64,000 nucleotides of DNA, taken from contig NZ_JAIVAH010000012.1 in the NCBI RefSeq assembly GCF_020171745.1, positions 62,001-126,000 of the forward strand, read 5' to 3'. Shown here piece by piece: positions 22,725 through 62,906 of the stretch. This DNA is from Prescottella equi. GTDB taxonomy: Bacteria; Actinomycetota; Actinomycetes; Mycobacteriales; Mycobacteriaceae. Made by a program: the position numbers and the translations under genes. The notes under the pieces were generated by a model, which did not search any database, had not been told where the DNA came from, and saw only the letters and a program-made list of their open reading frames with translations. Position 1 is the first letter of the stretch. Each line of letters starts with the position of its first letter.

Positions 22725-22787
22725 CGCGTTTTGCGCACTTATCGCGCTCGGGAGGCCCCGATTTCCGCGATAAGTGCGCAAAACGCG
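22725..22787. repeat. Palindromic repeat cluster A (two 22-bp units, inverted)
   Basis: Two 22-bp copies of the unit (CGCG, AT, AAGTGCGCAAAACGCG) lie at 22725-22746 (reverse) and 22766-22787 (forward). They are perfect complements around a 19-nt loop that can itself pair (TCGGG with CCCCGA). Start-to-start distance is 41 bp. It lies upstream of the truncated HxlR fragment, and the fragment's only start codon (GTG 22774) is inside the second unit. Confidence 0.95.
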
Positions 22788-23058
22788 GGGGCGAAACTTA
22801 CTGCGCACGCGGCACGAGTACGTGCTCACCGAGAAGGGGCGTGACCTGTTGCCGGCGGTCCTCGCGCTGATGCAGTGGGGCGACAAGTATCTGCAGGGCG
22901 ACCGCGGTGGTCCGCTCGACCTCGCGGACGACACGTCGGGCGAACCCGTGCACGTCGAGGTGCGCAGCGAATCGGGACGTCAGGTGCCGCTGGAGGAGCT
23001 GCGGGTGATCCCGAACGTCACCGAGGAGCAGGCCCGCCGCGCCATGCGCCGGGCCTGA
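22774..23058 (+). pseudogene. 5'-truncated HxlR-family regulator fragment
   Basis: The readable part (from about 22798) encodes TRHEYVLTEKGRDLLPAVLALMQWGDKYL, the end of the HxlR/MarR-like winged helix, then a C-terminal tail with EPVHVEVRSESGRQVPLEELRVIP. Full HxlR regulators have about 60-70 more residues before this point, including the recognition helix; they are absent. Immediately upstream is repeat cluster A, so the truncation point coincides with the repeat. The only start (GTG 22774) lies inside the repeat and would add a short unrelated leader. A DNA-binding regulator cannot be made from this fragment. The open frame to a normal stop suggests recent loss. Confidence 0.75.
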
Positions 23059-23075
23059 CGCCCACCCCCCCCACT

Positions 23076-23138
23076 CGCGGTTTGCGCACTTATCGCGCTC
23101 CGAGGGCCTCGAATTCCGCGATAAGTGCGCAAAACGCG
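23076..23138. repeat. Palindromic repeat cluster B (two 22-bp units, inverted)
   Basis: Units lie at 23076-23097 (reverse, one base change) and 23117-23138 (forward) around a 19-nt loop containing CGAGGGCCTCG. Spacing is 41 bp, the same as cluster A, and the overall length is also 63 bp. It sits between the HxlR fragment and the convergent holin-like gene. A purine-only-like tract follows at 23136-23201. Confidence 0.95.
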
Positions 23139-23202
23139 GGGGAAGGGAGGGCGCGGGGGAAGGGGAGAAGAGGGGGAGAAGGGAGAGGGAGAGGCGAGAG
23201 GG

Positions 23203-23604
23203 TCAGGCGCCGGAGTTCTTCTTCTCCTTGCGGTCCGCGATCTCGTCCTTGAGGAGGAACATCGGCAGCAGCACCGTCGCGAGGGCGGTCACGAGCCACA
23301 CGACGAGCGACGCGAGAATCCAGGTCTGCCACCCGGTGATCGACAGCCCGGTGATGAGCGACGCGACGACGAGCGCGACGAACGTCGACACCAGGCCGAT
23401 GCCGCCGAGGAAGGCGGGGGCGTTGCGGGCCGCGACCTTCATGATGAACGGCGACAGCAGGCTCTGCGCGATCGCGAACACGATGGCCGCGGTGACGAAC
23501 CCGGTGGCGGTGACGTGCACGTCCGGCAGCAACCACACGGCGGCCAGGATCCCGATCGCGGCAGACCCGAGGAAGATTGCCGTCCGGATGAGGAAACGAA
23601 TCAT
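23203..23604 (-). CDS. Phage-holin-superfamily IV-like membrane protein
   Basis: A 133-residue protein with four hydrophobic helices: IRFLIRTAIFLGSAAIGILAAVWLLP, GFVTAAIVFAIAQSLL, FLGGIGLVSTFVALVVASLITG and WILASLVVWLVTALATVLLP, then a charged tail (KDEIADRKEKKN). This matches the small chromosomal holin-like family (DUF360-type) widespread in actinobacteria. It is not evidence of a prophage: no lysin or phage gene is nearby. ATG 23604. Function unknown. Confidence 0.8.
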   Translation of the reverse strand: MIRFLIRTAIFLGSAAIGILAAVWLLPDVHVTATGFVTAAIVFAIAQSLLSPFIMKVAARNAPAFLGGIGLVSTFVALVVASLITGLSITGWQTWILASLVVWLVTALATVLLPMFLLKDEIADRKEKKNSGA

Positions 23605-23876
23605 GTTCGGGGCCTTTCGTGTCGACCGCGGGGCGCGATCTCGGGGAGTCGGATCGTCGACCTCGGCGGAGTCTAACCAGCGAGGCGCCCGCGGACGTGC
23701 AGGCGCGATTCCGGCCGTGTTGCGGGGTCGCGGTAACGGGTGGGCGGTACGCCGACGACACCACGTGGGGAGTCTCGGTGAGCGGGTGCTGGGTTCGTCC
23801 GAACCGGCGAAATTGCTTAGGCTGGGTATCGAGGCTGCGAGGTTCTGGGGTGGGACCGCGATCGGGAGGGCTGGCC

Positions 23877-25139
23877 GTGCTGAGGAACATTCTTGTCCGC
23901 GGACGCGAGATGCCGCGTCGGACAGGGTTTTTGGTGATCCTTGCGCTGTGGGCTGTCGCATCCGTGGTGCTGCTCTTCACGACTGTGCGGCCGTGGATGC
24001 CGACGATCGGGCTGTTCGCGGGCGGGGCGGACCTCGATGTGTACCGAGATGGCGCTCGCCACGTCATGGCGGATCTTCCGCTCTACACCGAGCCGGTGAT
24101 CCACGGTCTGCTCTACACGTACACGCCGTTCTCGACGTTGACCTTCATCCCGTTCGGACTGCTGCCCGGCGGCGTCGACAAGTATCTGTGGATGGCGGTC
24201 AACGTCGCGCTGCTGATCGCGATCGTCGCACTGTGCTGGCGGATCCTCGGTTACCGCATCACGCCGTACGTGGTCGGGGTGTCGGCGCTGGTGGCCGCGT
24301 CGTGCACGTTCCTCGAGCCGGTCCGGACCACACTGTTCTACGGACAGATCAATCTGGTGCTGATGGCGCTGGTGCTGTGGGACGCCTCGCGCGGTGACGC
24401 GAGCCGGCTCAAGGGCATCGGCGTCGGCATCGCGGCGGGTATCAAGCTCACGCCCGCCTACTTCGTCCTCTACTACCTGGTGCTGCGGAAGTGGCGCGCG
24501 GCCGCCGTCGCGGTCGGCACCGGCGTCGCCACGATCGCCGTCAGTTGGCTGGTGCTGCCGGACGATTCGTGGCAGTACTGGACCGAGACGTTCTTCGAGT
24601 CCACTCGCATCGCGCTGGATTCGCACCCGTCGAACCAGTCGATCCGCGGAGTGATCGCGCACCTCGGCGGCGATCCCGCGCCGACGGCGCTGTGGCTGAT
24701 GCTCGCGCTGTGCGCGGTCGCGGTGAGCATGTGGATCGTCGTGCGCCTGCACCGGCGCGGGGAGAAACTGCTCGCCATCACGGTCGCCGGGCTCACCGCC
24801 GCCGCGGTCTCGCCCTTCTCGTGGAGCCACCACTGGGTGTGGTTCGTCCCGCTGCTCGTCTACATCGTGCACCGCGCGATGACCAACCGGTGGTGGTGGC
24901 TCGCCGCGGCCGTCGTCTACCTCGCGGCCGGGGCGTGGCCCTACCGCTGGGACGAGGAGGTCGTCGTCGTGGGGCTGTTCCTGTTCCCGCCGTGGTGGAC
25001 GATCGCGGACGTCCTCATGAACATCTATCTGCTCGTCTACGTCGCCGTTCTCGCCGGGGCGGCGGTGATCGCCTTCCGCGGCGCACCCGGGCCGGCGATC
25101 GAGGAGTCGACACCCGTGCGCGAGCCCGAACCGGTGTGA
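23877..25139 (+). CDS. GT87-family membrane glycosyltransferase (probable mannosyltransferase)
   Basis: A 420-residue polytopic enzyme of the GT-C, DUF2029/GT87 type, related to mycobacterial alpha-1,2-mannosyltransferases of PIM and lipoarabinomannan synthesis. It has about ten helices. Asp residues in the first extracytoplasmic loop (GGADLDVYRDGARHV, near residue 52) are where these polyprenyl-phosphomannose enzymes carry the catalytic acid. PLYTEPVIHGLLYTYTPFSTLTFIPFG and SFSWSHHWVWFVPLLVY are further family segments. GTG 23877 has a GGGAGGG site 6 nt upstream; ATG 23910 is an alternative. The exact acceptor (PIM, LM or another glycan) cannot be told. Confidence 0.85.
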   Translation: MLRNILVRGREMPRRTGFLVILALWAVASVVLLFTTVRPWMPTIGLFAGGADLDVYRDGARHVMADLPLYTEPVIHGLLYTYTPFSTLTFIPFGLLPGGVDKYLWMAVNVALLIAIVALCWRILGYRITPYVVGVSALVAASCTFLEPVRTTLFYGQINLVLMALVLWDASRGDASRLKGIGVGIAAGIKLTPAYFVLYYLVLRKWRAAAVAVGTGVATIAVSWLVLPDDSWQYWTETFFESTRIALDSHPSNQSIRGVIAHLGGDPAPTALWLMLALCAVAVSMWIVVRLHRRGEKLLAITVAGLTAAAVSPFSWSHHWVWFVPLLVYIVHRAMTNRWWWLAAAVVYLAAGAWPYRWDEEVVVVGLFLFPPWWTIADVLMNIYLLVYVAVLAGAAVIAFRGAPGPAIEESTPVREPEPV

Positions 25140-25154
25140 TGCCACCATCGGGGC

Positions 25155-25586
25155 ATGCGCATTCGACATCTGATCGCCGCCGTCCCCGTCGCCCTGCTGG
25201 TTCTCACCGGTTGCAGTGACGGTGGCGACTCCGACTCGAAGGACACGAAGGACGCGGGCAAGACGACCATCACCGCCGAGGCCGGCGCCGACGCGCAGGA
25301 CACCGCGGTCTCGGTGATGTGCGCGCAGGTGGTCGCCTACCTCGACGCCACCGCGCAGCAGGCCGAAATGGCCGGTCAGCCGTTCGACCGGGAGGCGAAG
25401 GGCGCGGAGTTCCTCGACACGCTGAAGGCGAACGGCGGAACCGTCGTGGCGGCGTACAACGAGCAGGCCGCGGCGGCCGGTGAGCCGACGCTCGACCCGG
25501 CGACCGCGACGTGGGAGGACGTGCCGGCCGAGGCCCGTGAGCTCATCGAGCAGTCGGTGGAGTCCGGTATCGCCGGGAGCTGCTGA
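25155..25586 (+). CDS. Small lipoprotein of unknown function
   Basis: A 143-residue secreted protein with a lipoprotein signal: MRIRHLIAAVPVALLVLTGC gives lipobox LTGC with Cys20. A Ser/Asp/Lys-rich linker follows (residues 21-40), then a helical domain with one internal Cys (SVMCAQVVAYLDAT) and a C-terminal Cys, which could form a disulfide. It starts 15 bp after the GT87 gene and may be co-transcribed. I do not recognise the family. Confidence 0.8.
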   Translation: MRIRHLIAAVPVALLVLTGCSDGGDSDSKDTKDAGKTTITAEAGADAQDTAVSVMCAQVVAYLDATAQQAEMAGQPFDREAKGAEFLDTLKANGGTVVAAYNEQAAAAGEPTLDPATATWEDVPAEARELIEQSVESGIAGSC

Positions 25587-25592
25587 CGGCTC

Positions 25593-26285
25593 TCAGCCGC
25601 GCAGGGCGTCGGACAGCGCCCGCGCGGCGGCCTCCGGGTCGTCGGCCGCGGTGATGGCGCGGACCACGACGATGCGGGTGGCCCCGGCCTCGAGGATCTG
25701 CGGCAGCCGCTCCTGGTCGACGCCACCGATCGCGAACCACGGGCGGGACGGCTGCGCCTCGGCCGTGCTGCGGACCAGTTCGATGCCCGACGCGGCCCGG
25801 CCCGGCTTGGTGGGGGTGGCCCACACCGGACCGGTGCAGAAGTAGTCGACGTCCTCTTCGATCGCGGCGAGGCTGGCCTGCGCGCGGTTGTTCGTGGAGC
25901 GGCCGATCACGACGTCGGGTCCGACGATCTGCCGCGCGTAGTGCACGGGCAGGTCGTTCTGGCCCAGGTGCAGGACGTCGGCGCCCGCGGCGAGCGCGAG
26001 GTCGGCGCGGTCGTTGACGGCGAGCAGCGCACCGTGCCGGCGGGCCGCGGCGCCGATCACAGCCAGCGCCGCAAGCTCCTCCTTGACCTCCATCGGCCCG
26101 AGCGCGCGCTCGCCGGCCGAGCCCTTGTCGCGGAGCTGGACGATGTCGACACCCCCGGCGAGGGCGGCGTCGACGAACTGGGCCAGATCGCCCTTGTCGC
26201 GGCGGGCGTCGGTGCACAGGTACAGGCGCGCGTCGGCGAGGCGTTCGCGCGGGGTGAGGTGCTTGACGGACTGGGAAGCATGCAC
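25593..26285 (-). CDS. thiE: Thiamine-phosphate synthase
   Basis: A 230-residue TIM-barrel enzyme joining HMP-pyrophosphate and the thiazole phosphate to thiamine phosphate. Family motifs: [71 protein letters not shown] and [13 protein letters not shown]. The GTG start at 26285 sits directly after GAGG with no proper spacing, so translation may be leaderless. It is divergent from the riboswitch-controlled thiO-thiS-thiG; the riboswitch is on the other strand, so thiE is not directly under it. Confidence 0.95.
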
Positions 26286-26321
26286 ACCTCGAACGGTAGT
26301 CTCTAATGCGGACGAATCAAC

Positions 26322-26410
26322 ACGGGAGTCCCGAGGGATACGGGGCTGAGAGGGGGCCTGCCGGCCCCGACCGTCATACCTGACCCGGATCATGCCGGCG
26401 CAGGGAGTGA
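26322..26410 (+). promoter_or_regulatory. TPP riboswitch (THI element)
   Basis: The leader of thiO carries the conserved thiamine-pyrophosphate aptamer parts: GGGGCTGAGA at 26342-26351 (pyrimidine sensor helix) and ACCTGACCCGGAT then CATGCCGGCGCAGGGAG to 26406 (pyrophosphate sensor helix). A GC-rich optional stem (GGGGCCTGCCGGCCCC) lies between. The element ends 12 nt before the GTG of thiO and overlaps its ribosome-site region, so TPP probably blocks translation initiation of thiO-thiS-thiG. Confidence 0.95.
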
Positions 26411-26421
26411 GGTGGAGAGAA

Positions 26422-27489
26422 GTGACCCGATCGGTTTCCGTCGTCGGAGGCGGTGTCATCGGCCTGTCCGTCGCGTGGCGTGCCGCGCAGAGCGGCTGGG
26501 CGGTGCGGCTGTACGACCCGGCGCCCGGCAGCGGTGCGTCGTGGGTGGCCGGCGGCATGCTGGCCCCGCTGTCCGAGGGCTGGCCCGGTGAGGAGAAGGC
26601 GCTCGCGCTGGGCGCGGCGTCGTTGCAGCGGTGGCCGGGCTTCGGCGCCGAACTCGAGCGCATCGCGGACCTGGAGCTGTTCACCTCCGACGACTCGCTG
26701 ACCGTCGCGCTCGACGCCGCCGACGCCGCCGACCTGCACACGATCGCGGACTGGGTGGCCGAGCAGGGCCACGAGCTGCGCATCCTGAACCGGGCGCAGA
26801 TCCGCGAGCTCGAGCCGTCGCTGGGCCGCGGCATCCGGCTGGCGTTGCAGGCGCCCACCGAACTGGCCGTCGACAACCGGCTGCTGGTGCAGGCATTGCG
26901 GACCGCGGCGGTGGCGGCCGGCGTCGAGCTGATCGAACGCGCCGTGACCGACCTCGGCGAGCTCACCACCGATCAGGTGGTGCTGGCGGCCGGATCGAAC
27001 TCGGCGCAGCTGTGGCCGGACCTGCCGGTGCGCCCGGTGAAGGGCGAGATCCTGCGGCTGCGGGCCCGGCCGGGTGTGACGCCGGCGCCGCTGCGCACCA
27101 TCCGTGGCAGCGTGCACGGGCGGCCGTCGTACCTGGTGCCGCGCGCCGACGGCATCGTCGTGGGCGCCACGCAGTACGAGTCCGGACACGACACCCAGGT
27201 CACCGTCGCCGGGGTGCGCGACCTCATCGCCGACGCCGAGGCTCTGATGCCCGCGATCGGCGAGTACGAGCTGTACGAGGCGAAAGCCGGTCTGCGCCCG
27301 ATGAGTCCGGACAACCTGCCGATCATCGGACGCGTCTCGGACCGCGTGGTGCTGGCGACCGGGCACGGCCGCAACGGCATCCTGATGACCCCGGTCACCG
27401 CGGACGCGACGGTCGCGATCCTGGACGGCAACCCCCTGGCGGAGGCGGAAAGTGCCACCGCCGAACGATTTTCACCCGCGAAGGCATGA
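26422..27489 (+). CDS. thiO: Glycine oxidase for thiazole synthesis
   Basis: A 355-residue FAD-dependent amine oxidase (DAO family). It oxidises glycine to dehydroglycine for thiazole formation. The N-terminal FAD motif is [21 protein letters not shown], followed by [19 protein letters not shown]; near the end [16 protein letters not shown] and [12 protein letters not shown] are typical of ThiO. GTG 26422 follows a GGAG site within the riboswitch expression platform. First gene of thiO-thiS-thiG. Confidence 0.95.
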
Positions 27490-27500
27490 GTGAGGTTTGG

Positions 27501-28461
<961 letters not shown>

Positions 28462-28571
28462 GTGCGGCACGCCGCGGGTCACGGGTTGATCGAAATCCCA
28501 GGCCCGGCGCGGATTCAGGCTAGGCTCGAGAACAACTTGCTCCGTTGGTTCGAGTGCCTGGAGGGCATGCC

Positions 28572-29111
28572 ATGACGACGTTGAGTACCGACCTTCTGGA
28601 TCTGCTCCGCTCGGACGTCGTGGCGTGGAACGCCCGACGCGACCAACTGCCCGATGCGCCCGACCTCCACGGCCTCGATCTGTCGGGTGCGGACCTCGCT
28701 GGGGCCAATCTCACAGGTGCCAACATGGAGGGCACGGATCTCTCCGGGGCGGACCTGACGTTCGCGGAGCTCGGCGGCGCGAACCTCACGGGTGCGAACC
28801 TCTCCGGCGCCGTCGCCGCGGACGCCGACTTCAGCAAGGCGTACCTCACCAACGCCAAGCTCAACGGGGCGGTGCTCACGCTGTCGTTCCTGACGTCGAC
28901 GTACCTGGCGCATGCCAACCTGACCGGCGCGGATCTGTCCGGCGCGTACATGACCGGCGCGCATCTCGAGGACGCCGATCTCACCGGGGCGCGGCTCACG
29001 GGCGCGTACCTCGCGCACGCCGATCTGACCGGGGCGCGGCTGTCCACCGCCGACGTCAGCGGCGCGGATATGACCGACGTGACGATGCCGGACGGCGCCG
29101 TCAGGGACTGA
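28572..29111 (+). CDS. Pentapeptide-repeat protein
   Basis: A 179-residue protein. After a 35-residue leader, almost the whole sequence is A-(D/N)-L-x-x pentapeptides (DLSGADLAGANLTGANMEG onward), about 25 units, predicted to form a right-handed quadrilateral beta-helix. The family includes the DNA-mimic gyrase protector MfpA, but the leader and the lack of its other features give no reason to call it that. ATG 28572 has a GGAGGG site 6 nt upstream. It stands alone between thiG and an ABC transporter. Role unknown. Confidence 0.88.
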   Translation: MTTLSTDLLDLLRSDVVAWNARRDQLPDAPDLHGLDLSGADLAGANLTGANMEGTDLSGADLTFAELGGANLTGANLSGAVAADADFSKAYLTNAKLNGAVLTLSFLTSTYLAHANLTGADLSGAYMTGAHLEDADLTGARLTGAYLAHADLTGARLSTADVSGADMTDVTMPDGAVRD

Positions 29112-29221
29112 CTCCGGGTGATCCCCCACACGCCTCGGGGTGCGTGTCATCCCTGGGTATGACACGCGAGTAGACCCGAGACCGATGCGCAGGTAGGGAC
29201 GTTTCGGGCAGAGTGGTGCCC

Positions 29222-30187: not shown

Positions 30188-30933
30188 GCGTGTTGAATGC
30201 CGAGCGCATCAAGCTCACGTCCACCAAGTCGCCGATGTGGTGCAGTCTCATCGCTGTCGTGGTCAGCGTCGGGTTCGCTGCCATCATCGGTGCCGCGTAC
30301 AAGGCCGCCGAGTCGTCGGGTGACAACTCGTTCGGCGAGTTCTCGATGTCCCTGACCCAGGCGGGCGCCGCCCAGTTCGGCGCGATGCTGGTCATGATCA
30401 TGTCGGCGCTCGCGGTCACCACCGAGTACCGGTTCGGCGTCATCCGCACCACGTTCCAGGCCATCCCCAATCGCACGCAGGTGATCGGTGGCAAGGCGCT
30501 GCTGCTCGCGGTGGTCGCGGCCGTCCTCGGCCTCGTAATCGCACTCGCGTCCTTCCTCGTGGCACAGGCGATGTCGGGGGTGTCGTTGTCGATCAGTGGT
30601 GACAACGCGCGCATCCTGTTCGGCATCCCGATCTACTTCGCGCTTCTGGCCGTGCTCGCGGTCGGTGTGGGTACGCTGATCCGTCAGTCGGCGGGTGCTA
30701 TCTCGCTGCTGCTGCTGTGGCCGCTGGTGATCGAGAGCCTCGCGACGATGATCCCCAAGGTGGGCAAGTACATCGGCGAGTTCGGTCCGTTCAACAACGT
30801 GACGTACTTCCTCGGCAACAATGGCATGTACGACTTCCACTGGGGTCCGTGGGGCGCGCTGCTCTACTTCGCGGCGTTCGTCGCGATCGTGTTCGGCGCC
30901 AGCCTGTTCGTGGTGAACAAGCGCGACGCCTGA
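30184..30933 (+). CDS. ABC-2 type transporter permease
   Basis: A 249-residue membrane protein with six hydrophobic segments (for example WCSLIAVVVSVGFAAIIGAA, FGAMLVMIMSALAVTTEYRFG, LLLAVVAAVLGLVIALASFLVA, and a final LLYFAAFVAIVFGASLFVV). The EYRFGVIRTTFQAIPNR loop is typical of ABC-2 permeases. It is translationally coupled to the ATPase upstream and followed at once by a strong terminator. Confidence 0.92.
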   Translation: MSVLNAERIKLTSTKSPMWCSLIAVVVSVGFAAIIGAAYKAAESSGDNSFGEFSMSLTQAGAAQFGAMLVMIMSALAVTTEYRFGVIRTTFQAIPNRTQVIGGKALLLAVVAAVLGLVIALASFLVAQAMSGVSLSISGDNARILFGIPIYFALLAVLAVGVGTLIRQSAGAISLLLLWPLVIESLATMIPKVGKYIGEFGPFNNVTYFLGNNGMYDFHWGPWGALLYFAAFVAIVFGASLFVVNKRDA

Positions 30934-46706: not shown

Positions 46707-48038
46707 ATGAACGGCGTGTTGGTGGACGGTGGTGCGCGGACGGAGCCGGTGCGGCTCTCCGACCGGACCCGCAATTACCTGATCGGCGGCGTCGTCGCGG
46801 CCGGTGTCGCAATCCTGATCGCGCTGCAGATGTTCGCGTCGTCCCACGGTTTCGAGGGACCTCTGACGAGTCTGCTCAACGATTTCGTCGGGACCCCCAA
46901 GTCGGCATCCGTGCCGTGGGCCGGGCTCGCGCTCGCGATGGTGGGGCTCACCAACCGGCAGCGGGTGCTGGCGCTGTCGAGCGCGGTGGGCATCGACGTC
47001 GTGATCGCCGCAATCCGCTACCTCGCGGGCGGGCCGCTCACCGTCGGCAACGGCGCGGTGATCGTGCTGACCGCGATCGGCGTCTGGGCCGGTTGGAAAT
47101 GGTCCGGCGAGCAGCGCCGCAACGCACTCATGGGCGTCGGACTGGGCGCGTTGCTCATCGTCGCCACCAAGTTCGGCGACGTGTGGCTGCACATCACCGT
47201 CCTCGCCGGCCCGGAGGTCCTCGACCAGTACGTCCAGCTCGCCGACCACGCGCTCGGCAACCCGTCGTGGGTGATGGGCAACATCGTCGACGCGACGGGG
47301 TCGGTCGGCTACGCCGTCCTGCACTGGGTGTACATCGAGCTGCCCGTGGCCGCGATCGTCGTCGCGCTGTACCAGCTGCGCAAGGGCTGGCCGTCGCACC
47401 ATCTGGTCCGCACGTTCCTGCTGATCGGGCTGATCGGGCCGGTGTTCTACATCCTGTTCCCCGTGGTGGGGCCGATCTTCGCGTTCGGCGCCGACGGCAA
47501 CGGCTTCCAAGTGGGCGACTTCTGGCCGTCCGTCGTGCCGTTCGACCTGACGCCGTCGGCCATGCCGTTCGACGACGCCACCCCCCGCAACTGCATGCCC
47601 AGCCTGCACACCGCGTGGGCGCTCGCGCTGTTCCTGCACTCGCGGCAGGGACCGCGCTGGCTGCGCTGGGGCGGCACGTTCTGGCTGGTGTGCACGCTCA
47701 GCGCGACCCTCGGCTTCGGCTACCACTACGGCGTCGACCTCATCGCCGGTGTCGTCCTGACGCTGACGCTCGAGTCCGCCCTGCGCGCCCCCGAGCGCGG
47801 CTGGGGTGCGTTCCGGGTGCGCCTTGTCGCCGGCGGCGCGGTGCTGCTGGCCGCACTGCTGCTGAGCTACCGGTTCCTGGCCGTGGAGATCGCCGAGTAC
47901 CCGATCGTCTCCGCGCCGCTGCTCCTCGGTGTCCCGGCCCTCTTCGCCTACGCGTACTGGCGCACGTTCTACCGTGCCCCGGCCTCCTCGCGTTTTGCGC
48001 ACTTAGCGCTCCCGGAGGACGCCCCGACCGCGCGCTAA
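46707..48038 (+). CDS. PAP2-family membrane phosphatase/inositolphosphotransferase-like protein
   Basis: A 443-residue membrane protein with about ten helices. The PAP2 motifs are NCMPSLHTAWALALFLHS and GFGYHYGVDLIAGVVL (catalytic His pairs); the arrangement is that of Aur1/Ipt1-like enzymes. The last 16 or so codons (from SSRFAHLALPED) come from the palindromic repeat of cluster C, which contains the stop, so the native C-terminus may have been replaced. ATG 46707 (GTG 46716 in frame). A role in envelope lipid or inositol-phosphate transfer is inference. Confidence 0.85.
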   Translation: MNGVLVDGGARTEPVRLSDRTRNYLIGGVVAAGVAILIALQMFASSHGFEGPLTSLLNDFVGTPKSASVPWAGLALAMVGLTNRQRVLALSSAVGIDVVIAAIRYLAGGPLTVGNGAVIVLTAIGVWAGWKWSGEQRRNALMGVGLGALLIVATKFGDVWLHITVLAGPEVLDQYVQLADHALGNPSWVMGNIVDATGSVGYAVLHWVYIELPVAAIVVALYQLRKGWPSHHLVRTFLLIGLIGPVFYILFPVVGPIFAFGADGNGFQVGDFWPSVVPFDLTPSAMPFDDATPRNCMPSLHTAWALALFLHSRQGPRWLRWGGTFWLVCTLSATLGFGYHYGVDLIAGVVLTLTLESALRAPERGWGAFRVRLVAGGAVLLAALLLSYRFLAVEIAEYPIVSAPLLLGVPALFAYAYWRTFYRAPASSRFAHLALPEDAPTAR

Positions 48039-48093
48039 GTGCGCAAAACGCGGGGGTGAGGGCCGCGTCGGCGCGCTAAGTGCGCAAAACGCG
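47989..48093. repeat. Palindromic repeat cluster C (three 22-bp units)
   Basis: Units lie at 47989-48010 (reverse), 48031-48052 and 48072-48093 (both forward), starting 42 and 41 bp apart. They carry CT at the variable positions (…CTAAGTGCGC), and the first unit has the matching change, so pairing is preserved. The cluster begins inside the PAP2 reading frame and ends 18 bp before the mnhG stop. Confidence 0.95.
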
Positions 48094-54884: not shown

Positions 54885-54887
54885 CGC

Positions 54888-56234: not shown

Positions 56235-56324
56235 CGGCCCGACGCTACCTGGCGCGCAACGCGTTCCGGCGGCGACCACGCAGTGCGTGATCGCCGCCGA
56301 ATCGGTCAGATGTACCGGTTGACG

Positions 56325-57827
56325 TCAGTGCGCCATCACGAGCTCAACCTCCTGGTCGCCCGCCGCCGCGGGCAGCTTGCCTCGGGGCAGCAGGAACGCC
56401 GAGATCACCGCTCCCGCAGCGAAGATCGCGGCCGACCACCAGAACGTGGTGGTGTAGCCGTGCACTGCCGCGAGCGCCTGGCCTTGCGGGGTCGGGGCCG
56501 CGTCGGACAGGTAGTTCGCGGCGGCGGTCGCCGCGATCGTGCTGAGCAGTGCGGTGCCGATCGAGCCACCGACCTGCTGCATGGTGTTCACCGTCGCGGA
56601 GGCCACGCCGGCGTCCTCCGGCCGGACGCCGGTGACCGCGCCCTGCATGCCGGGTGCGAACACCATGCCCATGCCGACGCCGAGCAGCACCAGGCCGGGC
56701 AGGATGTGCGGCGCGTAGGTGCTGTCCACGGTCAGTTGGGCGAGCAGGACCATGCCGATCGCCACCAGGGTCAGGCCGGTGGTCATCAGCGGCCGGGGAC
56801 CGAACCGGGGCAGTAGCACGCTGGTCGCGGTGGTTGCCGAGATGACCATGCCCGCGACCATCGGCAGGTAGGCGACACCGGTGATAATGGGGCTGTACTG
56901 CAGGACCGTCTGCATGTAGTAGGTCAGGAACAGGAACACCGCGAACATGCCGGTGCCGGCGATGAACATGGCCAGGTAGGCCCCGCCGCGGGTGCGGTCG
57001 AGCACGACCCGCAGCGGCAGCAGCGGATGCGCGACGCGGGTCTCGATGACGACGAATACCGCCAGCAGGACCGCGCCGGTCAGCAGCCACGCGATGGTGG
57101 CGCCGTTGGACCAGCCGTGCGACTCGGCGTGTGAGAAGCCGTAGACGATGCTGAACAGCCCGGCGGACACCGCGACCGTGCCGGGGATGTCGAGCCGAGG
57201 CCGGTGCTCGGCCTTGTGCGGCGCCATCATCAGCAACGCGCCGACCAGTGCGACGGCCGCGAAGATCAGGTTGACGTACAGGCTCCAGCGCCACGAGGCC
57301 CACTCGGTGAGCACGCCGCCGAGGAGCAGTCCGACGGCGCCGCCGGCGCCCGCGACGGCGCCGAAGACGCCGAATGCCTTGGCGCGCTCGTCGGGCTTGG
57401 TGAAGGTGACCGACAGCAGGGACAACGCCGCGGGGGCGAGCAGCGCGCCGAAGACGCCCTGTCCGGCGCGCGCGGCGACCAGCATCGGGAAGTTCACGGC
57501 GGCACCGCCGACCGCGGACATCGCGGCGAAGCCGACGAGGCCGATGACGAAGGTGTTGCGGCGGCCGAACAGGTCGCTCAGGCGTCCGCCGAGCAGCAGC
57601 AGGCTGCCGAAGGCCAGCGCGTAGGCGGTGACCACCCACTGCCGGTCGGCGTCGGAGAACTCGAGTGATTTCTGGGCGGCGGGGAGCGCGATGTTCACGA
57701 TGGTGGCGTCGAGCACGACCATCAGTTGGGCCAGTCCGATGACGGCCAGGACGAGCCAGCGAAGGCGGTGCTCTCGCGTCTGCTCTTCCGGCACGGTCTC
57801 CGGCGGATCGATTGTGGTGCTGCTCAT
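56325..57827 (-). CDS. MFS drug exporter, DHA2 family, under TetR control
   Basis: A 500-residue exporter with 14 helices. Marks: VIGLAQLMVVLDATIVNIALPAAQ (DHA2 helix 1), GGRLSDLFGRRNTFVIG (loop 2-3) and GPLLGG-like VGLLLGGVLTEWASWRWSLYVNLIF (motif C region). It is divergent from a TetR gene, and the gap holds two operator-like repeats. Inducible multidrug or metabolite export is the usual role of such pairs. ATG 57827. Confidence 0.94.
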   Translation of the reverse strand: MSSTTIDPPETVPEEQTREHRLRWLVLAVIGLAQLMVVLDATIVNIALPAAQKSLEFSDADRQWVVTAYALAFGSLLLLGGRLSDLFGRRNTFVIGLVGFAAMSAVGGAAVNFPMLVAARAGQGVFGALLAPAALSLLSVTFTKPDERAKAFGVFGAVAGAGGAVGLLLGGVLTEWASWRWSLYVNLIFAAVALVGALLMMAPHKAEHRPRLDIPGTVAVSAGLFSIVYGFSHAESHGWSNGATIAWLLTGAVLLAVFVVIETRVAHPLLPLRVVLDRTRGGAYLAMFIAGTGMFAVFLFLTYYMQTVLQYSPIITGVAYLPMVAGMVISATTATSVLLPRFGPRPLMTTGLTLVAIGMVLLAQLTVDSTYAPHILPGLVLLGVGMGMVFAPGMQGAVTGVRPEDAGVASATVNTMQQVGGSIGTALLSTIAATAAANYLSDAAPTPQGQALAAVHGYTTTFWWSAAIFAAGAVISAFLLPRGKLPAAAGDQEVELVMAH

Positions 57828-57877
57828 GAGGAACCCCTCTGGATGTGGGTCGTGGGTTGAGTCACCGAAGCGGATCG

Positions 57878-57939
57878 AAGTGGAGGAGTAAGCTCCACTT
57901 AGGTCACCGTACGCCTAAGTGGAGGAGATATCTCCACTT
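57878..57939. promoter_or_regulatory. Two matched 23-bp operator palindromes
   Basis: Both sites have the form AAGTGGAG-N7-CTCCACTT, at 57878-57900 and 57917-57939, with centres 39 bp apart. Together they form a higher-order mirror (CTCCACTTAGG facing CCTAAGTGGAG). They lie between the divergent MFS and TetR genes and are almost certainly the TetR binding sites, controlling both promoters. Confidence 0.9.
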
Positions 57940-57995
57940 GATTTTTCCGCGCGGTGCGGTTTGTCCGGGTATGTCGCAATTTCTGGGATGGCAGA

Positions 57996-58661
57996 ATGAA
58001 AATCGTGAGCACCGTCACAGAAGGTCGCCGACTGCGCGCCGACGCCGAGCGCAATCGCCGCAAGATCCTCGACGCCGCGGCGGAACTGTTCGCGACCCGT
58101 GGCATCGACATCACGCTCGACGACGTCGCGCGGCACGCAAAGGTCGGCGTCGGCACCGTCTACCGCCGCTTCACCTGCAAGCAGGAACTCGTCGACGGCG
58201 TGTTCCAGCAGCACATGGACGACCTGGCCGACAGCGCGACCGCCGCCCTCGAGTGTGAGGATCCGTGGGCGGGGCTTGTCGACTTCGTCGCCCTCACCTG
58301 CGAGAAGATGGCGCTCAACCGCGGCATGGCCGACGTCTTCTTCACCGGCGACGAGGGCCGGGAACAGGTCGCCTGCGCCCGCGAGCGCGTGACGCCGGTC
58401 GTCGAGGCGCTGATCGCCCGGGCCCGCGAAGCCGGCGCACTGCGACCGGACGTCACCGTCAACGACCTGTTCACTGTCAGTCGGATGGTCGAGTCCGTCA
58501 TCGACTTCGTCCGACCGGTCGCGCCCGAGGCCTGGCGCCGATACCTCGCGTTGGTGCTCGACGGAATGCGGGCGGAGGGGGCGGAGCGCACGCCGCTGCC
58601 CGCGCCGCCGTTGACCGACGATCAGGTCGAGCAGGCGAAGGCGTCCTGCATCCGGCGGTAG
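57996..58661 (+). CDS. TetR-family repressor of the MFS exporter
   Basis: A 221-residue regulator. The N-terminal TetR HTH is RRKILDAAAELFATRGIDITLDDVARHAKVGVGTVYRRFTCKQELVDGVF; the rest is a helical ligand-binding domain with several Cys (LECEDPW, VALTCEKM, VACARERV, ASCIRR) that could sense thiols or electrophiles. ATG 57996; GTG 57954 adds 14 residues across the promoter and is unlikely. It is expected to bind the two palindromes at 57878-57939. Confidence 0.93.
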   Translation: MKIVSTVTEGRRLRADAERNRRKILDAAAELFATRGIDITLDDVARHAKVGVGTVYRRFTCKQELVDGVFQQHMDDLADSATAALECEDPWAGLVDFVALTCEKMALNRGMADVFFTGDEGREQVACARERVTPVVEALIARAREAGALRPDVTVNDLFTVSRMVESVIDFVRPVAPEAWRRYLALVLDGMRAEGAERTPLPAPPLTDDQVEQAKASCIRR

Positions 58662-58708
58662 AGCGCGTCCGGCGAGGTACCCGACACTCCGCGAGGTAAG
58701 GAACACGC

Positions 58709-59461
58709 ATGGCACCGATCGTCGAGAAGGCAGCCACTCTGCTGGCACTGCACCAGCCCGGTAATCCCGTGATCCTCCCGACGGTCTGGGATGCATGGTC
58801 GGCCAACCTGGCCGCCGGGGCCGGATTCGCGGCATTGACCGTCGGAAGCCACCCGGTCGCCGACTCGGTGGGTCGGCCCGACAACGAGGGCATGTCGTTC
58901 GCGGAGCTGACGACGCGCGTCGCGCAGATCACCGCGGCGGTGGACCTGCCGGTCTCCGTCGACATCGAGGCGGGCTACGGCCTGCAGCCGCAGCAGCTGA
59001 TCGACGGTTTGGTCGAGGTCGGCGCGGTGGGCCTCAACATCGAGGACACGGTGCACAGCGAGGGCGGCCGGCTGCGCGAGCCGCAGGAGCACGCGGACTT
59101 CGTCGGCGGCCTGCGCAGTGCGGCGGACGCGGTCGGCGTGCACATGGTCGTCAACGCGCGCACCGACCTGTTCATCAAGCAGGTCGGCGACGAGGCGGAC
59201 CGGGTCGAGCGGGCCATCGCCCGGCTCACCCTGTGCGCCGAGGCCGGGGCCGACGTGCTGTACCCGGTCGGGTTCCACAGCGACGAGGTGTACCGGCAGC
59301 TCACGTCGGCACTGCCGTTGCCCGTCAACGCGATTGCCGACCCGGTGCGCGGCGGGAAGGCCGACTTCGCTGCCCTCGGGGTCGGCCGGGTCAGCTTCGG
59401 CCCGCTGCTGCAGGCCGCCCTGGCCGTCCGTGCGAACGAGCTCCTCGCCCGCTGGCAGTAG
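58709..59461 (+). CDS. Isocitrate lyase/PEP mutase superfamily protein
   Basis: A 250-residue TIM-barrel enzyme: NPVILPTVWDAWSANLAAGAGFAALTVGSHPVADSVG, LPVSVDIEAGYG (metal Asp/Glu), VGLNIEDTVHSEGGRLREP and HMVVNARTDLFI. It lacks the KKCGH-type motif of true isocitrate lyase and is closer to oxaloacetase/phosphonopyruvate hydrolase-like relatives. It cleaves or hydrolyses a 2-oxo or carboxy substrate that cannot be named. It follows TetR by 47 bp and may be co-transcribed. ATG 58709. Confidence 0.88.
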   Translation: MAPIVEKAATLLALHQPGNPVILPTVWDAWSANLAAGAGFAALTVGSHPVADSVGRPDNEGMSFAELTTRVAQITAAVDLPVSVDIEAGYGLQPQQLIDGLVEVGAVGLNIEDTVHSEGGRLREPQEHADFVGGLRSAADAVGVHMVVNARTDLFIKQVGDEADRVERAIARLTLCAEAGADVLYPVGFHSDEVYRQLTSALPLPVNAIADPVRGGKADFAALGVGRVSFGPLLQAALAVRANELLARWQ

Positions 59462-59483
59462 CGCGGCCGGAAGCTCTTACGCG

Positions 59484-61661
59484 TCAGCGGTTCTCGGCGT
59501 AGGCCTTGAGGTGCGCGACCTGGTCGGGATCCAGCGATGGGCGCACCTTCTCCCGTGCGGCCGCGACGTCGGCTGCCGTCACGTCGGCGGCGTCGACGTC
59601 GCGGCGCATCGCCGCGAGCGCGGCCTCGCGCAGCACTGCGGAGCAGTCGGCGGCGGAGTAGCCGTCGAGGTCCTCGGCCAGGTCCGTCAGGTCGACGTCG
59701 TCCGCGAGCGGCACCGACTTGCCCGACGTCCGCAGAATCTCCTTGCGCGCGTCCGCGTCCGGCGGCGGCACGAACACCAGGCGCTCGAGCCGGCCGGGGC
59801 GCAGCAGCGCGGGGTCGATGAGGTCGGGCCGGTTGGTGGCACCGAGCACCACGACGTCGCGCAGCGGTTCGACGCCGTCGAGTTCGGTGAGCAGCGCGGC
59901 CACGACGCGGTCGGAGACGCCGGAGTCGGAGCTCTGTCCGCGGCGCGGGGCGAGGGCGTCCACCTCGTCGAGGAAGATCAGCGACGGCGCCGAGTCGCGG
60001 GCCCGCTGGAACAATTCGCGCACCGCCTTCTCGGACGAGCCCACCCACTTGTCCATCAGCTCGGCGCCCTTGACGGCGTGCACGCTGAGTTGACCCGAAC
60101 TGGCCAGGGCGCGAACGAGATACGTCTTTCCGCAGCCGGGCGGCCCGTACAGCAGGACGCCGCGCGGCGGGTCGACGCCCAGACGGGCGAAGGAATCGGG
60201 GTGCTGCAGCGGCCACAGCACCGCCTCGGTGAGCGCCTGTTTGGTCTCGATCATGTCGCCGACGTCGTCGAGGGTGACGCTGCCGATCGCGAGTTCCTCG
60301 GTGCCCGAACGCGACAGCGGCCGGATCACGTCGAGCGCGCCCACCAGGTCGTCCTGTGTCAGCTTCGGTTCGGCCTTGTCGCTACTCGCGCGGGACGCGG
60401 CGCGCAGGGCCGCCTCCCGGCACAGCGCGGCCAGGTCGGCGACGACGAATCCCGGTGTTCGCGAGGCGATTGCGGGAAGATCGAGGTCGACGGTGGGGAC
60501 CTTGCGGAGCAGCAGTTCGAGGAACTGGCGGCGTCCGGCACCGTCGGGCAGCGACAGCGACAGTTCCCGGTCGCACAGGTCCTGGGCGCGCAGCCGGTCG
60601 TCGAGGCCCTCCGGGTGGGCGGTGGTCGCGACGAAGGCCACCGACTCGGTGTCGACGGCGCGGCGCAGCTGGTCGAGGATCAGCGTCGAGACGGGTTCGC
60701 GGGTGGCCGGCAGCAGCGCGTCGATGTCGGTGACGAGCAGCACGCCGCCGGAGCGGACGGCGTCCACGGCCGCGGTGACCCGCTCGAGCCGCGACTGTGC
60801 CTCGGACGCACCGACACCCGGACCGTCGAGTTCGACGACGCGGCGCTTGGCGAGCACCGAGCGCGCGAGCATCGACTTGCCGACACCGGCCGGACCGGTG
60901 ACGAGCACCCCGAGATGCGGTGAGGCGCCGAGCTTCTGCAGCAGTTCGGGTTCGTCGAGGGCGAGGGTCAGCCACTCCGACAGTTTCGCGGCCTGCGCGT
61001 GTGACCCGACGAGGTCCTCGACCGGCACGACGTCGGCCTCCCGCGGTTCGATCACCGTCGGTGCGGCAGTGGTCGTCGGGGCGGGGGTGGCGTGCGTGAC
61101 GCCGGCTCCCCAGCGCACCGCCGAGTTCGGTTGCACGCTCACCGGTCCGCCCGACGGGTCGACGCCGGTGACGGTCAGCAGCTCCGACGTCCAGGTGACG
61201 CCGAAGGTCCGCGAGAGGGCCTGTGTGGCAGACGTCGTGCTGGTGCCCGGGCCGAGGTCGCGCGGCAGCAGCGAGACCGCGTCGCCGACGGTGAGGACCT
61301 TGCCGAGCAGCGCCTGCCGCAGTGTCGCGTCGGAGATGGACTGTTGCGCCATCGCGGATCCGCTCACCGTGACCGTGCGCGCGCCGTACACCGCGACTGG
61401 TGCCACGACCACCGTCGCGTCCTCGCGCAGACCGGCATTCGAGAGCGTGACGTCGTCGAGCAGGGCCGTCCCGGTGGGGGTTCCGGCCGGCGCGATGGCG
61501 GCGACCGCGGCCGTGCGCCGCGCGCCGATCAGCGAGATCGCGTCCCACTCCCGCAGTCCGAGCGCCGCGAGCGCCTCCGGGTGCAGGCGCACCACCCCGC
61601 GTCGGGCGTCCGCGGCGGACGTGTTGAGCCGGACCGTGAGCGTCAGTTCGGGTGAGGTCAC
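59484..61661 (-). CDS. CDC48-type tandem AAA+ ATPase (Rv0435c-like)
   Basis: A 725-residue two-ring ATPase. An N-domain (residues 1-200) has a double-psi-barrel-like CDC48_N start (LRLNTSAADARRGVVRLHPEALAALGL). D1 has Walker A GPAGVGKS (256-263) but its Walker B is LLVTDIDAL, with Ile instead of the catalytic Glu. D2 has Walker A GPPGCGKT (506-513), Walker B LIFLDEVDAL with Glu566 and the Arg-finger region NRPDLIDPALLRPGRLERLVFV. So ATP hydrolysis is probably by D2. It matches Rv0435c, next to pssA in M. tuberculosis. Its target proteins are unknown. GTG 61661. Confidence 0.92.
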   Translation of the reverse strand: MTSPELTLTVRLNTSAADARRGVVRLHPEALAALGLREWDAISLIGARRTAAVAAIAPAGTPTGTALLDDVTLSNAGLREDATVVVAPVAVYGARTVTVSGSAMAQQSISDATLRQALLGKVLTVGDAVSLLPRDLGPGTSTTSATQALSRTFGVTWTSELLTVTGVDPSGGPVSVQPNSAVRWGAGVTHATPAPTTTAAPTVIEPREADVVPVEDLVGSHAQAAKLSEWLTLALDEPELLQKLGASPHLGVLVTGPAGVGKSMLARSVLAKRRVVELDGPGVGASEAQSRLERVTAAVDAVRSGGVLLVTDIDALLPATREPVSTLILDQLRRAVDTESVAFVATTAHPEGLDDRLRAQDLCDRELSLSLPDGAGRRQFLELLLRKVPTVDLDLPAIASRTPGFVVADLAALCREAALRAASRASSDKAEPKLTQDDLVGALDVIRPLSRSGTEELAIGSVTLDDVGDMIETKQALTEAVLWPLQHPDSFARLGVDPPRGVLLYGPPGCGKTYLVRALASSGQLSVHAVKGAELMDKWVGSSEKAVRELFQRARDSAPSLIFLDEVDALAPRRGQSSDSGVSDRVVAALLTELDGVEPLRDVVVLGATNRPDLIDPALLRPGRLERLVFVPPPDADARKEILRTSGKSVPLADDVDLTDLAEDLDGYSAADCSAVLREAALAAMRRDVDAADVTAADVAAAREKVRPSLDPDQVAHLKAYAENR

Positions 61662-61702
61662 GCCGTCCAGCCTAGTGCGACCCGTCGCGTCCCCTGTCTC
61701 CC

Positions 61703-61807
61703 CGCGTTTTGCGCACTTATCGCGCCCGCGCGCCCCTCACCCCCGCGTTTTGCGCACTTATCGCGAGTTCCGGGGTCGGGTTTCTCGCGATAAGTGCGCA
61801 AAACGCG
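61703..61807. repeat. Palindromic repeat cluster D (three 22-bp units)
   Basis: Units lie at 61703-61724 and 61744-61765 (both reverse) and 61786-61807 (forward), starting 41 and 42 bp apart. The second and third form a 64-bp hairpin with a 20-nt loop. All three have AT at the variable positions. The cluster is in the divergent gap between the AAA ATPase gene and the DUF559 gene. Confidence 0.95.
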
Positions 61808-61909
61808 AAGGGGGCGGGCTGTGGAGAAGCGTGGAGGCTGTGGATAACTCGGGGTTCGGGCCGGTTTCGGTGGGGGAGCGGTCGGCGCGGTAGGGCACCG
61901 TGATCGGTC

Positions 61910-62797
61910 ATGAGGAGGAAGAGACCCGAACTGCCCGAGGTGTTCGTCGGACGCGATGCCGTCCGTGAGGGAGCGCTGCGCCCGTCGGAGCTGCGGGGGC
62001 CGCGGGTGCGCCGACTGTTCCGCGGCGTCTACTGCCCGAACGGTGTGCGCGTCAGCCACGAACTGCGGTGCAGGGCGGCCGCGCTCACCGGAGAGGGGAC
62101 GCTGGTGCTCACCGGCAGGTCGGCGGCGGTGGTGCGGGGCGTCGATCTGGCGTCGGCGTCGGATCCGGTGGACGCCATCGCGCTCCCCGGATGCCGGGTC
62201 AACCGGCGTCCGGGATTGAACGTTCGACGCGTCGCGATCGACGCCGGCGACCACGAGCCGTGGGAGCAGATCGCGATCGCCCGCCCCGAACGCATGACGT
62301 TCGACGTGCTCTCGACGGGGCCGCTGATCCGCGCGGTCGCGGACGTCGACAGGATCCTGCGGGCGAAGCTGACGACCGAGGCGCGCATGGCGTCGTATCT
62401 CGAGGGCCGGCACGATCACGGCATCGTGCGGGCACGCGAGGCGCTGGCGCTGGTGGATCCGCGAGCGGAGTCCCCACCCGAGTCGGAGCTGCGGGTGCGC
62501 ATGCACTTCGCCGGACTGCACCCGGAGCCGCAGCTGCACATCTATGCGGACGGGGAGTTCGTCGCGCGCGTCGACTTCGCGTTCGAGGAGGAGCGCCTGG
62601 TCGTCGAGTACGACGGGGAGTGGCACGGGCAGCGCTCGGCGTTGGCGCGGGACCGGATCCGGCAGAACAAGCTCCGGAAGGCCGGCTGGCAGATCCACTT
62701 CGTCACCAAGGAAATGATGGTGAACCCGAACGCGGTGATCGACGAGATCTACGGCGCCTTCCTACAAGCCCGCAGTGGCCGGCCTCGACTCCTCTGA
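61910..62797 (+). CDS. DUF559/Vsr-like nuclease-fold protein with AbiEi-like N-terminus
   Basis: A 295-residue protein common in actinobacteria. The N-terminal half (VGRDAVREGALRPSELRGPRVRRLFRGVYCPNGV) resembles the AbiEi-type winged-helix region. The C-terminal 110 residues form a DUF559/Vsr-like PD-(D/E)xK domain: SELRVRMHFAGLHPEPQLHIYADGEFVARVDFAFEEERLVVEYDGEWHG, with the acidic residues of the nuclease core. No partner toxin is beside it. It is bracketed by repeat clusters D and E. ATG 61910. Nuclease activity is inference from the fold; target unknown. Confidence 0.82.
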   Translation: MRRKRPELPEVFVGRDAVREGALRPSELRGPRVRRLFRGVYCPNGVRVSHELRCRAAALTGEGTLVLTGRSAAVVRGVDLASASDPVDAIALPGCRVNRRPGLNVRRVAIDAGDHEPWEQIAIARPERMTFDVLSTGPLIRAVADVDRILRAKLTTEARMASYLEGRHDHGIVRAREALALVDPRAESPPESELRVRMHFAGLHPEPQLHIYADGEFVARVDFAFEEERLVVEYDGEWHGQRSALARDRIRQNKLRKAGWQIHFVTKEMMVNPNAVIDEIYGAFLQARSGRPRLL

Positions 62798-62802
62798 CCC
62801 GT

Positions 62803-62906
62803 CGCGACAAGTGCGCAAAACGCGAAAACCCGGCCCCGCCCCTCGCGTTAAGTGCGCAAAACGCGAGAAGGGGGCCGGGATTCCCGCGCTAAGTGCGCAA
62901 AACGCG
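62803..62906. repeat. Repeat cluster E (three 22-bp units, all direct)
   Basis: Units lie at 62803-62824, 62844-62865 and 62885-62906, all in the forward orientation and exactly 41 bp apart. The variable pair is AC, TT and CT in turn. The two 19-nt spacers are partly complementary to each other. The cluster fills the convergent gap between the DUF559 gene (5 bp away) and pssA (5 bp away). Confidence 0.95.

Follow-up and report, generated by a model that had tools for sequence, protein, structure and literature searches.

The 22-bp repeat units dispersed through the genome of Prescottella equi are probably cognate elements of a nuclease encoded at 61910-62797 of the window, by which we mean the whole stretch of 64,000 nucleotides analysed. 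To this explanation, read from sequence and taken together with its mechanism, we give a probability of about two in three. The association between the nuclease and the repeats is well supported, while the way in which the doublets spread is something we infer.

Repeat units and clusters

The sequence-only reading had described 13 units in five clusters. All 13 were found at the positions listed below, 11 of them exact and two with one mismatch (23076 and 47989), and the reported cluster orders (-+, -+, -++, --+ and +++) and start-to-start distances of 41-42 bp were reproduced in the window.

22725..22787, both strands: doublet -+ (22725-22746 minus, 22766-22787 plus)
23076..23138, both strands: doublet -+ (23076-23097 minus, one mismatch; 23117-23138 plus)
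47989..48093, both strands: triplet -++ (47989-48010 minus, one mismatch; 48031-48052 plus; 48072-48093 plus)
61703..61807, both strands: triplet --+, upstream of the nuclease gene (61703-61724 minus, 61744-61765 minus, 61786-61807 plus)
62803..62906, units on the plus strand: triplet +++, downstream of the nuclease gene (62803-62824, 62844-62865, 62885-62906)

A chance origin of the units was ruled out. In 100 dinucleotide shuffles of the window the mean number of unit matches was 0.02 and the maximum 1, and the genome-wide core search that had been proposed gave 111 matches with at most one mismatch, whereas the reversed pattern gave 6. The phasing was likewise expected to hold across the genome, and it does: in 50 clusters, 53 of 55 neighbour distances are 41 bp (42 times) or 42 bp (11 times), the other two being 40 bp and 9 bp, the latter an overlapping weak match. 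These clusters hold 105 units, which is most, not all, of the units in the genome (C4:8876 is among those left out). The consensus of the 105 units by position counts is CGCG(A/C)(T/C)AAGTGCGC(A/G)AAACGCG. Identity is 93% among the 22-bp units, 35% for the spacers, which are 19-20 bp long, and 38% for the flanks. The order -+ is found in 31 of the 50 clusters. The clusters are intergenic; one of the 50 lies inside a called gene, and that one is at a contig end.

The two units of one doublet pair with each other in the three doublets folded, because they are inverted copies. The remark that some spacers can pair was not borne out, as ungapped spacer self-complementarity in 30 -+ doublets was 0.198, compared with 0.266 (sd 0.024) in shuffles. 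Complementarity of the 8-nt flanks of doublets was no higher than after re-pairing (0.404 vs 0.431, sd 0.024). The doublet flanks are skewed, the 5' flank being rich in C/T and the 3' flank in A/G. A known RNA or riboswitch identity was dropped for the units, since an Rfam search of the window gave no match on them at the gathering score; its sole match was a TPP riboswitch.

The unit family fits a REP/BIME-like element, more exactly a REPIN-like one, made of dispersed doublets. The sequence-only reading had offered either this or an array of protein sites, and both fit: units that are conserved where spacers and flanks are not, at fixed spacing, carry the signature of a putative protein site. 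It overlooked the gene of the probable cognate protein between clusters 4 and 5.

The nuclease gene and its surroundings

61910..62797, plus strand: nuclease gene, 295 aa, AbiEi-like region fused to a Vsr-like nuclease domain
61820..61828, minus strand: TTCTCCACA, first of two DnaA-box-like motifs upstream of the nuclease gene
61839..61847, minus strand: TTATCCACA, the second such motif there, at a distance of 19 bp

The gene sits between clusters 4 and 5 and is bracketed by units. In brief, residues 3-183 approximately form the AbiEi-like region, with fold likeness to 6y8q and 1zel, and residues 187-290 approximately form the Vsr-like nuclease domain, which belongs to DUF559 / MTES_1575. Folds missing from the result list of this comparison carry no evidential weight. 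The nuclease half combines a Vsr-like / EDxHD fold with conserved E, D, H and D residues. In the nuclease core the acidic and histidine residues do not vary among the 80 sequences compared, which were retrieved with the motif VEYDGxWH and are thus biased towards sequences with intact residues there, so that retrieval partly favours this result. DnaA-box-like motifs also precede 53 of 77 distant homologue genes.

The downstream neighbour is a convergent 332-aa frame on the minus strand that ends at 62912 and is presumably phosphatidylserine synthase-like. The divergent upstream neighbour we take to be ATPase-like. An AbiEii nucleotidyltransferase (DUF1814) toxin gene is not found among the immediate neighbours; unlike in AbiE, the next downstream gene is convergent and there is no toxin gene in the same operon.

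Distribution in Prescottella and Mycobacteriaceae

Prescottella is the former Rhodococcus equi group. The core search in related genomes, also proposed earlier, found the pattern in 12 of the genus's 14 genomes; outside the genus, none of the 287 further genomes among the 301 of Mycobacteriaceae has more than one core match (17 of them have exactly one). In the genus, nuclease and units co-occur with one exception. Units adjoin all nine nuclease orthologues, and four congeners with a clean empty nuclease site have 3, 16, 0 and 0 core matches. The exception is genome G012, with 94 core matches and no nuclease orthologue at E<=1e-30. Its contigs break between two edge units, inside what we read from the translated ends as IS30-like ends, and the nuclease gene was therefore either lost or left unassembled. 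In G010 the gene is broken in the nuclease domain, yet 30 core matches are kept.

At the orthologous site of the 63-bp doublet at 23076, the doublet is either there in full or missing altogether: of eight scorable Prescottella genomes, four carry it and four have an empty site. The remaining 6 of the 14 were left unscored because the two neighbour genes were not found side by side.

Distant homologues and private repeats

Distant homologues are often bracketed by unrelated repeats of their own, in 36 of 77 loci as compared with 3 of 109 shifted controls. This count takes a shared flank string of at least 15 nt in 400-bp flanks, with gene bounds from match extents, and the 77 are 80 distant loci minus L075, L116 and L123, whose flanks are truncated. 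The other 41 loci have no shared 15-nt flank repeat; some of them have shorter or degenerate repeats. A first-pass count with 350-bp flanks and guessed start codons gave 26 of 75 loci at 15 nt or more vs 2 of 275 shifted windows, and the earliest, with 500-bp flanks, gave 37 of 74 loci at 14 nt or more vs 24 of 400 cross-locus pairs. We prefer the shifted control because the cross-locus background includes related species. It should be noted that the counts are not independent, since the Prescottella orthologues are syntenic and several distant loci come from one genus.

The private repeats are cognate in 149 of the 150 matches listed. Among these, copies beyond the nuclease locus were found in at least 9 of 17 genomes, G303 has at least 72 near-identical copies, and G309 and G312 have copies at their own nuclease locus only; G302, G304, G305, G308, G310 and G311 are not represented among the matches listed. 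Match totals per genome range from 5 to 170 at E<=1, chance matches included. The paralogues of G023 each have their own flank repeat, of 14 nt (L135), 18 nt (L137) and 19 nt (L138).

Some lineages again show a spacing of 41-43 bp; other spacings are 33 bp in G314, 21 bp in G306, and 44 and 57 bp in G317. The spacing count was made without the nuclease loci L221, L226 and L229, and a separate count without inverted pairs of non-palindromic seeds, as their offset depends on the seed cut point.

Alternative explanations and known systems

The units could be sites of the AbiEi-like domain for autoregulation and control of a gene set, dispersed by ordinary mutation and selection and not by the nuclease. 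According to the part of PMC7319586 available to us, AbiEi and Rv2827c each regulate their own promoter, where they bind paired inverted repeats of 23 bp, and the conservation of evenly spaced units alone agrees with such a role. We consider this operator or regulon unlikely, however, as units are present downstream of the nuclease gene as well, and as only 6 of 43 placed clusters lie between divergent genes (p 0.07 against background) and 15 of 43 between convergent genes (vs 7 of 43, p 0.08), although neither share departs significantly from background. The dozens of near-identical copies in some other lineages, such as G303, the presence or absence of a doublet as a whole at an orthologous site, and the retention of a nuclease half with invariant residues, some of them favoured by the retrieval motif, also argue against it.

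The likeness to AbiEi-type antitoxins and autorepressors (type IV toxin-antitoxin AbiE; Rv2827c) lies in the fold of the N-terminal region and in 22-23-bp units in inverted pairs adjoining the gene. The present system differs from them in its fused nuclease domain, in the dispersal of units over the genome and in its spacers of 19-20 bp, compared with 3 or 13 bp in the available text of PMC7319586. It differs from Vsr and from the EDxHD homing endonuclease I-Bth0305I in the AbiEi-like fusion and the association with dispersed repeats.

It is less likely still that the units are an element of chromosome architecture or replication, with the nuclease-like protein as a DnaA-regulated structural binder in nucleoid or replication control, its cutting activity unused. 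Helical phasing and the DnaA-box-like promoter motifs would suit such an element, but a patchy distribution in which the site is cleanly empty in four congeners would not, nor would the invariance of the nuclease-core residues, even if partly biased by retrieval.

We regard a MITE family of an unrelated transposon, with the nuclease gene as cargo or hitch-hiker caught between copies, as very improbable. Inverted doublets of 63 bp, presence/absence polymorphism and a copy-bracketed gene do resemble a MITE-bounded cassette. Against this, the private repeats that bracket this one gene family differ among many lineages and also among the G023 paralogues, and no target-site duplication was evident by eye in the cluster flanks of this genome.

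Ordinary REPINs moved by a RAYT (an HUH Y1 transposase), with the nuclease as bystander, are already largely refuted: the doublet form, the position between genes, the cognate private repeats and the flanking gene in single copy fit REPIN/RAYT as portrayed in the available parts of PMC3116915 and PMC8266576, and a search of 30 other genomes found Y1_Tnp in 8, but Y1_Tnp (PF01797) has no match in this genome, in the flanking gene, in the other 22 of those 30 genomes, in 7 of 10 Prescottella genomes with at least 30 core matches or in 13 of the 17 distant genomes with a private-repeat search, and G011 has Y1 but zero units.

REPINs and their RAYT/TnpAREP (REPtron) offer several parallels. In both, inverted doublets of short units are dispersed in intergenic DNA, cognate units stand on both sides of a single enzyme gene, each lineage has its own matching enzyme and repeat, and copies are few where the gene site is empty (G012, where the gene was not found, retains its copies). 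Unlike in a REPtron, the enzyme is AbiEi-like and Vsr-like with no HUH Y1 domain, the units lack the GTAG (or CTAC) foot tetranucleotide, and they are spaced 41-43 bp apart in several lineages. The available portion of PMC3733652 describes CGTC REPs as having no dedicated transposase and places TIRtron genes between private inverted repeats; the units here lack the CGTC end tag, and TIRtrons, unlike the present gene, carry tyrosine transposases according to the same text.

Proposed mechanism and significance

We read the association of nuclease and units as a REPIN/RAYT-like system that would be built on an unrelated enzyme. The AbiEi-like N-terminal half may bind the 22-bp unit, as AbiEi and Rv2827c do with their paired 23-bp inverted repeats, with two protomers on one face of the DNA, four helical turns apart. 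The Vsr/homing-endonuclease-like half would then nick or cut at or near the doublet, and repair or replication following this would copy the doublet into new intergenic sites. Given the DnaA-box-like motifs ahead of the gene, expression of the nuclease may be tied to replication initiation. More tentatively, at somewhat less than even odds, this could be a new class of self-spreading repeat in Actinobacteria, in which an AbiEi-type autorepressor joined to a Vsr/homing-type nuclease has made its paired operator a mobile, helically phased, DnaA-timed doublet, each gene co-evolving with its private repeat.

The finding that enzyme relatives from other actinobacteria also lie between private repeats hints at an unfamiliar spreading route for small DNA elements. 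The spread of REP elements is described as unresolved even for RAYTs in the part of PMC8266576 at hand. If the proposal is true, a second, unrelated enzyme class would be tied to REP-like doublets, and the question of REP spread could be tested directly by swapping partners among many natural enzyme/repeat pairs, which have different sequences and a partly shared geometry. Stand-alone proteins of DUF559 / MTES_1575, which Pfam still lists under the name 'unknown function', would gain a role, and one linked to replication control through the DnaA-like boxes. A nuclease-paired dispersed repeat system was not found described in the open PMC literature. Titles and abstract openings of open PMC papers on DUF559 show no dispersed-repeat topic, no open PMC paper has both 'very short patch repair' and 'repetitive extragenic palindromic', and RAYT, nuclease and Rhodococcus are words absent from the main text of the RepRanger survey (PMC12306157), as far as available.

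Other DUF559 genes of the genus

The idea that other DUF559 genes in Prescottella have no flanking repeats was rejected; they lack the 22-bp unit, and most have repeats of their own. Where DUF559 is part of a larger frame (L041, L042, L048 and L054), less than 15 nt is shared; in at least L041 and L042 the frame takes up most or the whole of the stretch examined, which leaves hardly any flank to compare. L032 is the second such gene of this genome, and its flanking repeats were not found elsewhere within the 286 kb searched. Among the 11 stand-alone genes (L032, L043-L047 and L049-L053), nine share at least 15 nt between their flanks, a count made without a shifted control; L032 shares 13 nt and L045 shares 10 nt. 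These genes are partly orthologous, the shared string being identical in L050 and L051 and in L052 and L053, and similar in L043 and L044.

Geometry and copy number of the 22-bp units

All 13 copies of the 22-bp unit were found at the positions and orientations claimed in the sequence-only reading, 11 of them exact and two with one mismatch, and window shuffles gave an average of 0.02. In the same reading, neighbouring units keep a 41-42 bp spacing whichever way they point. This extends to the genome of P. equi (G000; 5.49 Mb, 46 contigs), in which the core also recurs at other loci, and the check that this reading set for itself is passed. Genome-wide there are 111 core matches with at most one mismatch vs 6 for the reversed pattern. 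A survey of the window and 20 further stretches gave at least 50 clusters and at least 105 units, with a few units outside the sample. Start-to-start distances between neighbours (50 clusters, 105 units) are 41 bp in 42 cases, 42 bp in 11, and 40 and 9 bp once each, the last being an overlapping weak match. A distance of 41 bp is about four helical turns.

The most frequent element is an inverted doublet of 63-64 bp, with the order -+ in 31 of the 50 clusters. The remaining orders are +++ and + (four each), --+ (three), -, --- and -++ (two each), and ++ and -- (one each). Pairwise identity across 30 doublets is 93.4% for the units, 34.7% for the spacers and about 38% for the flanks. Judged by sequence, conserved units at a set spacing with variable spacers and flanks are the pattern of a putative sequence-specific protein site with fixed geometry.

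Using a simple codon-based gene caller, we placed 43 of the 50 clusters in gaps flanked by gene pairs, of which 22 are co-oriented, 15 convergent and 6 divergent; six clusters are at contig edges and one, at a contig end, is inside a called gene. Of 43 background gaps above 60 bp in the window and one further locus, L141, 7 were convergent, 14 divergent and the other 22 co-oriented. The shift of clusters towards convergent gaps is suggestive, the excess over background not being significant (p 0.08). An alternative is that the units are operator sites of a regulon; however, an operator role would be expected to give the opposite shift, away from convergent gaps.

Private repeats around distant nuclease homologues

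Two unit triplets flank the gene for the window nuclease, which has DnaA-box-like motifs upstream:

61820-61847: DnaA-box-like motifs
61910-62797, forward strand: 295-aa protein with an AbiEi-like region and a Vsr-like nuclease domain (DUF559 / MTES_1575)

The distant set comprises 80 loci outside Prescottella (L059-L138; 76 from one search and 4 from another), 33-49% identical to this protein, with usable flanks in 77. We searched the upstream and downstream 400 bp for an exact common string, direct or inverted, with shifted windows of the same geometry as control. A string of at least 15 nt is shared by the flanks of 36 of the 77 loci vs 3 of 109 shifted windows, and one of at least 18 nt by 28 of 77 vs 0 of 109. 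This is the key result. The strings are unlike between lineages and often palindromic.

Among 11 other stand-alone DUF559 genes in Prescottella, some of them orthologues, nine have at least 15 nt common to both flanks, and these repeats differ from the 22-bp unit. Genome G023 has three paralogous nucleases, each with its own flank string (L135, 14 nt; L137, 18; L138, 19). The second stand-alone DUF559 gene of G000 (L032, contig C6, 80168-80974) has a different repeat on both sides, with 13 nt shared; no further copy of it turned up in the 286 kb of sequence searched.

Repeats from 17 genomes with distant homologues (G301-G317) were joined as one query and run against the same genomes. Matches at E<=1 occur in all 17, 5 to 170 each, chance included. 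Among the 150 matches listed, 149 are to the genome's own repeat; the other is a match in Saccharopolyspora elongata to the S. oryzae repeat. S. elongata also carries L077, another homologue, whose string is similar. Eleven of the 17 genomes are represented among the matches listed. Nine of these (G301, G303, G306, G307, G313-G317) have matches outside the nuclease locus, indicating that the private repeat is dispersed there; G309 and G312 have, among the matches listed, their own nuclease locus only. Based on the flank test and the dispersal in nine genomes, the association between nuclease and repeat is well supported.

Around the nuclease genes of the distant set, neighbouring repeats that are palindromic or point the same way are spaced 41 bp 19 times, 42 three times, 43 twice, and 37, 38, 39, 40, 83 and 104 bp once each, so that 24 of 30 distances, in 9 loci, are 41-43 bp. 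Dispersed copies were taken from 20 stretches of 8 genomes, of which three nuclease loci were dropped, leaving 17 stretches from 6 genomes (distances below 90 bp). Here 19 of 25 distances, in 3 of the 6 genomes, are 41-43 bp: 41 (12, all G307), 42 (5, all G301) and 43 (2, G313). The others are 21 (2, G306), 44 (2) and 57 (1) in G317, and 33 (1, G314). Systems spaced 41-43 bp mostly have unlike unit sequences. On our reading the protein, and not descent of the DNA, sets this geometry; spacing differs in other systems.

Nuclease and units within Prescottella

Core matches in the 14 Prescottella genomes
Nuclease orthologue present (E<=1e-30; 9 genomes): G000 111, G001 58, G002 71, G004 98, G005 36, G006 90, G007 35, G008 40, G010 30
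Empty site: G003 3, G009 16, G011 0, G013 0
Gene not found: G012 94

All nine orthologues have units within 1.5 kb, on both sides in eight. The G010 orthologue (L040) is broken after H239, inside the nuclease domain; of the 30 core matches in that genome, just 5 are exact. At the empty sites the two neighbour genes lie no more than a few dozen bases apart and enclose neither the nuclease gene nor a unit. G003 and G005 are sisters in a tree built from these neighbour genes (3 vs 36 matches, nuclease present in G005), which suggests that loss of the nuclease gene goes with loss of the units, G003 being only 79% complete.

The exception to this co-occurrence is G012, whose locus has a single unit on either edge. 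On our reading, the contig ends at its nuclease locus (L162, L168), between the edge units, carry apparent IS30-like transposase ends. Either the gene was lost recently or the assembly has a gap here. The arrangement looks like that of a repeat-bounded cassette that an IS has entered and so removed or split. Orthologue presence goes with at least 30 core matches (p 0.005, G012 counted against, kinship ignored).

The 63-bp doublet at 23076, between two convergent genes, was scored in 8 of the 14 genomes. Four genomes have it (G000, G002, G004, G006) and four lack it (G003, G005, G007, G012). This shows that it is gained or lost as a block, direction and mechanism apart.

Promoter motif

The motif TTNTCCACA is the DnaA-box consensus (TTATCCACA, in actinobacterial form TTGTCCACA). 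It was scanned with at most one mismatch in 180 bp around and upstream of gene starts, where 53 of 77 distant homologues carry it, vs 2 of 77 on the downstream side and 12 of 509 other windows. Without a mismatch the figures are 30 of 77, 1 of 77 and 0 of 509. All nine Prescottella orthologues have it, seven with a neighbouring pair 19 bp apart. In other subfamilies only some of the stand-alone DUF559 genes have it.

Proposed mechanism and known systems

We suggest that the AbiEi-like halves of a nuclease dimer would hold two units on one DNA face, that the Vsr-like half would nick or cut, and that repair or replication would then copy the doublet to another place. DnaA-timed expression would put this activity at replication initiation. 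From homology and the site pattern, the nuclease likely binds the units; that it cuts, and that the doublet is copied, we infer. Alternatively, the nuclease-like protein may be a structural binder, or the units a MITE with a hitch-hiking nuclease gene. Movement by a RAYT is excluded for G000 at the level of PF01797, which has no match in the genome, nor in 22 of 30 other genomes searched.

Units and nuclease would work like REPIN and RAYT (PMC3116915; PMC8266576), but of the defining features of that system two that we tested fail here: an HUH Y1 enzyme and a GTAG tag. The nuclease borrows the AbiEi fold, and its operon contains no toxin gene. We found no description of an enzyme-repeat system of this kind in the open papers searched, and rate units and nuclease as new in kind in that sense. 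Granted, REP doublets served by a dedicated enzyme are a type of element with functional precedent; a stricter view may see less novelty.

Additional observations

At least 11 contig ends of G000, from 10 of its 46 contigs, have a unit no more than about 125 bp away, and the draft assembly thus seems to break at hairpin-forming doublets:

Contig ends near a unit: C6 (both ends), C7, C12, C14, C16, C20, C21, C29, C30, C38

The window also has a TPP riboswitch at 26312-26423.
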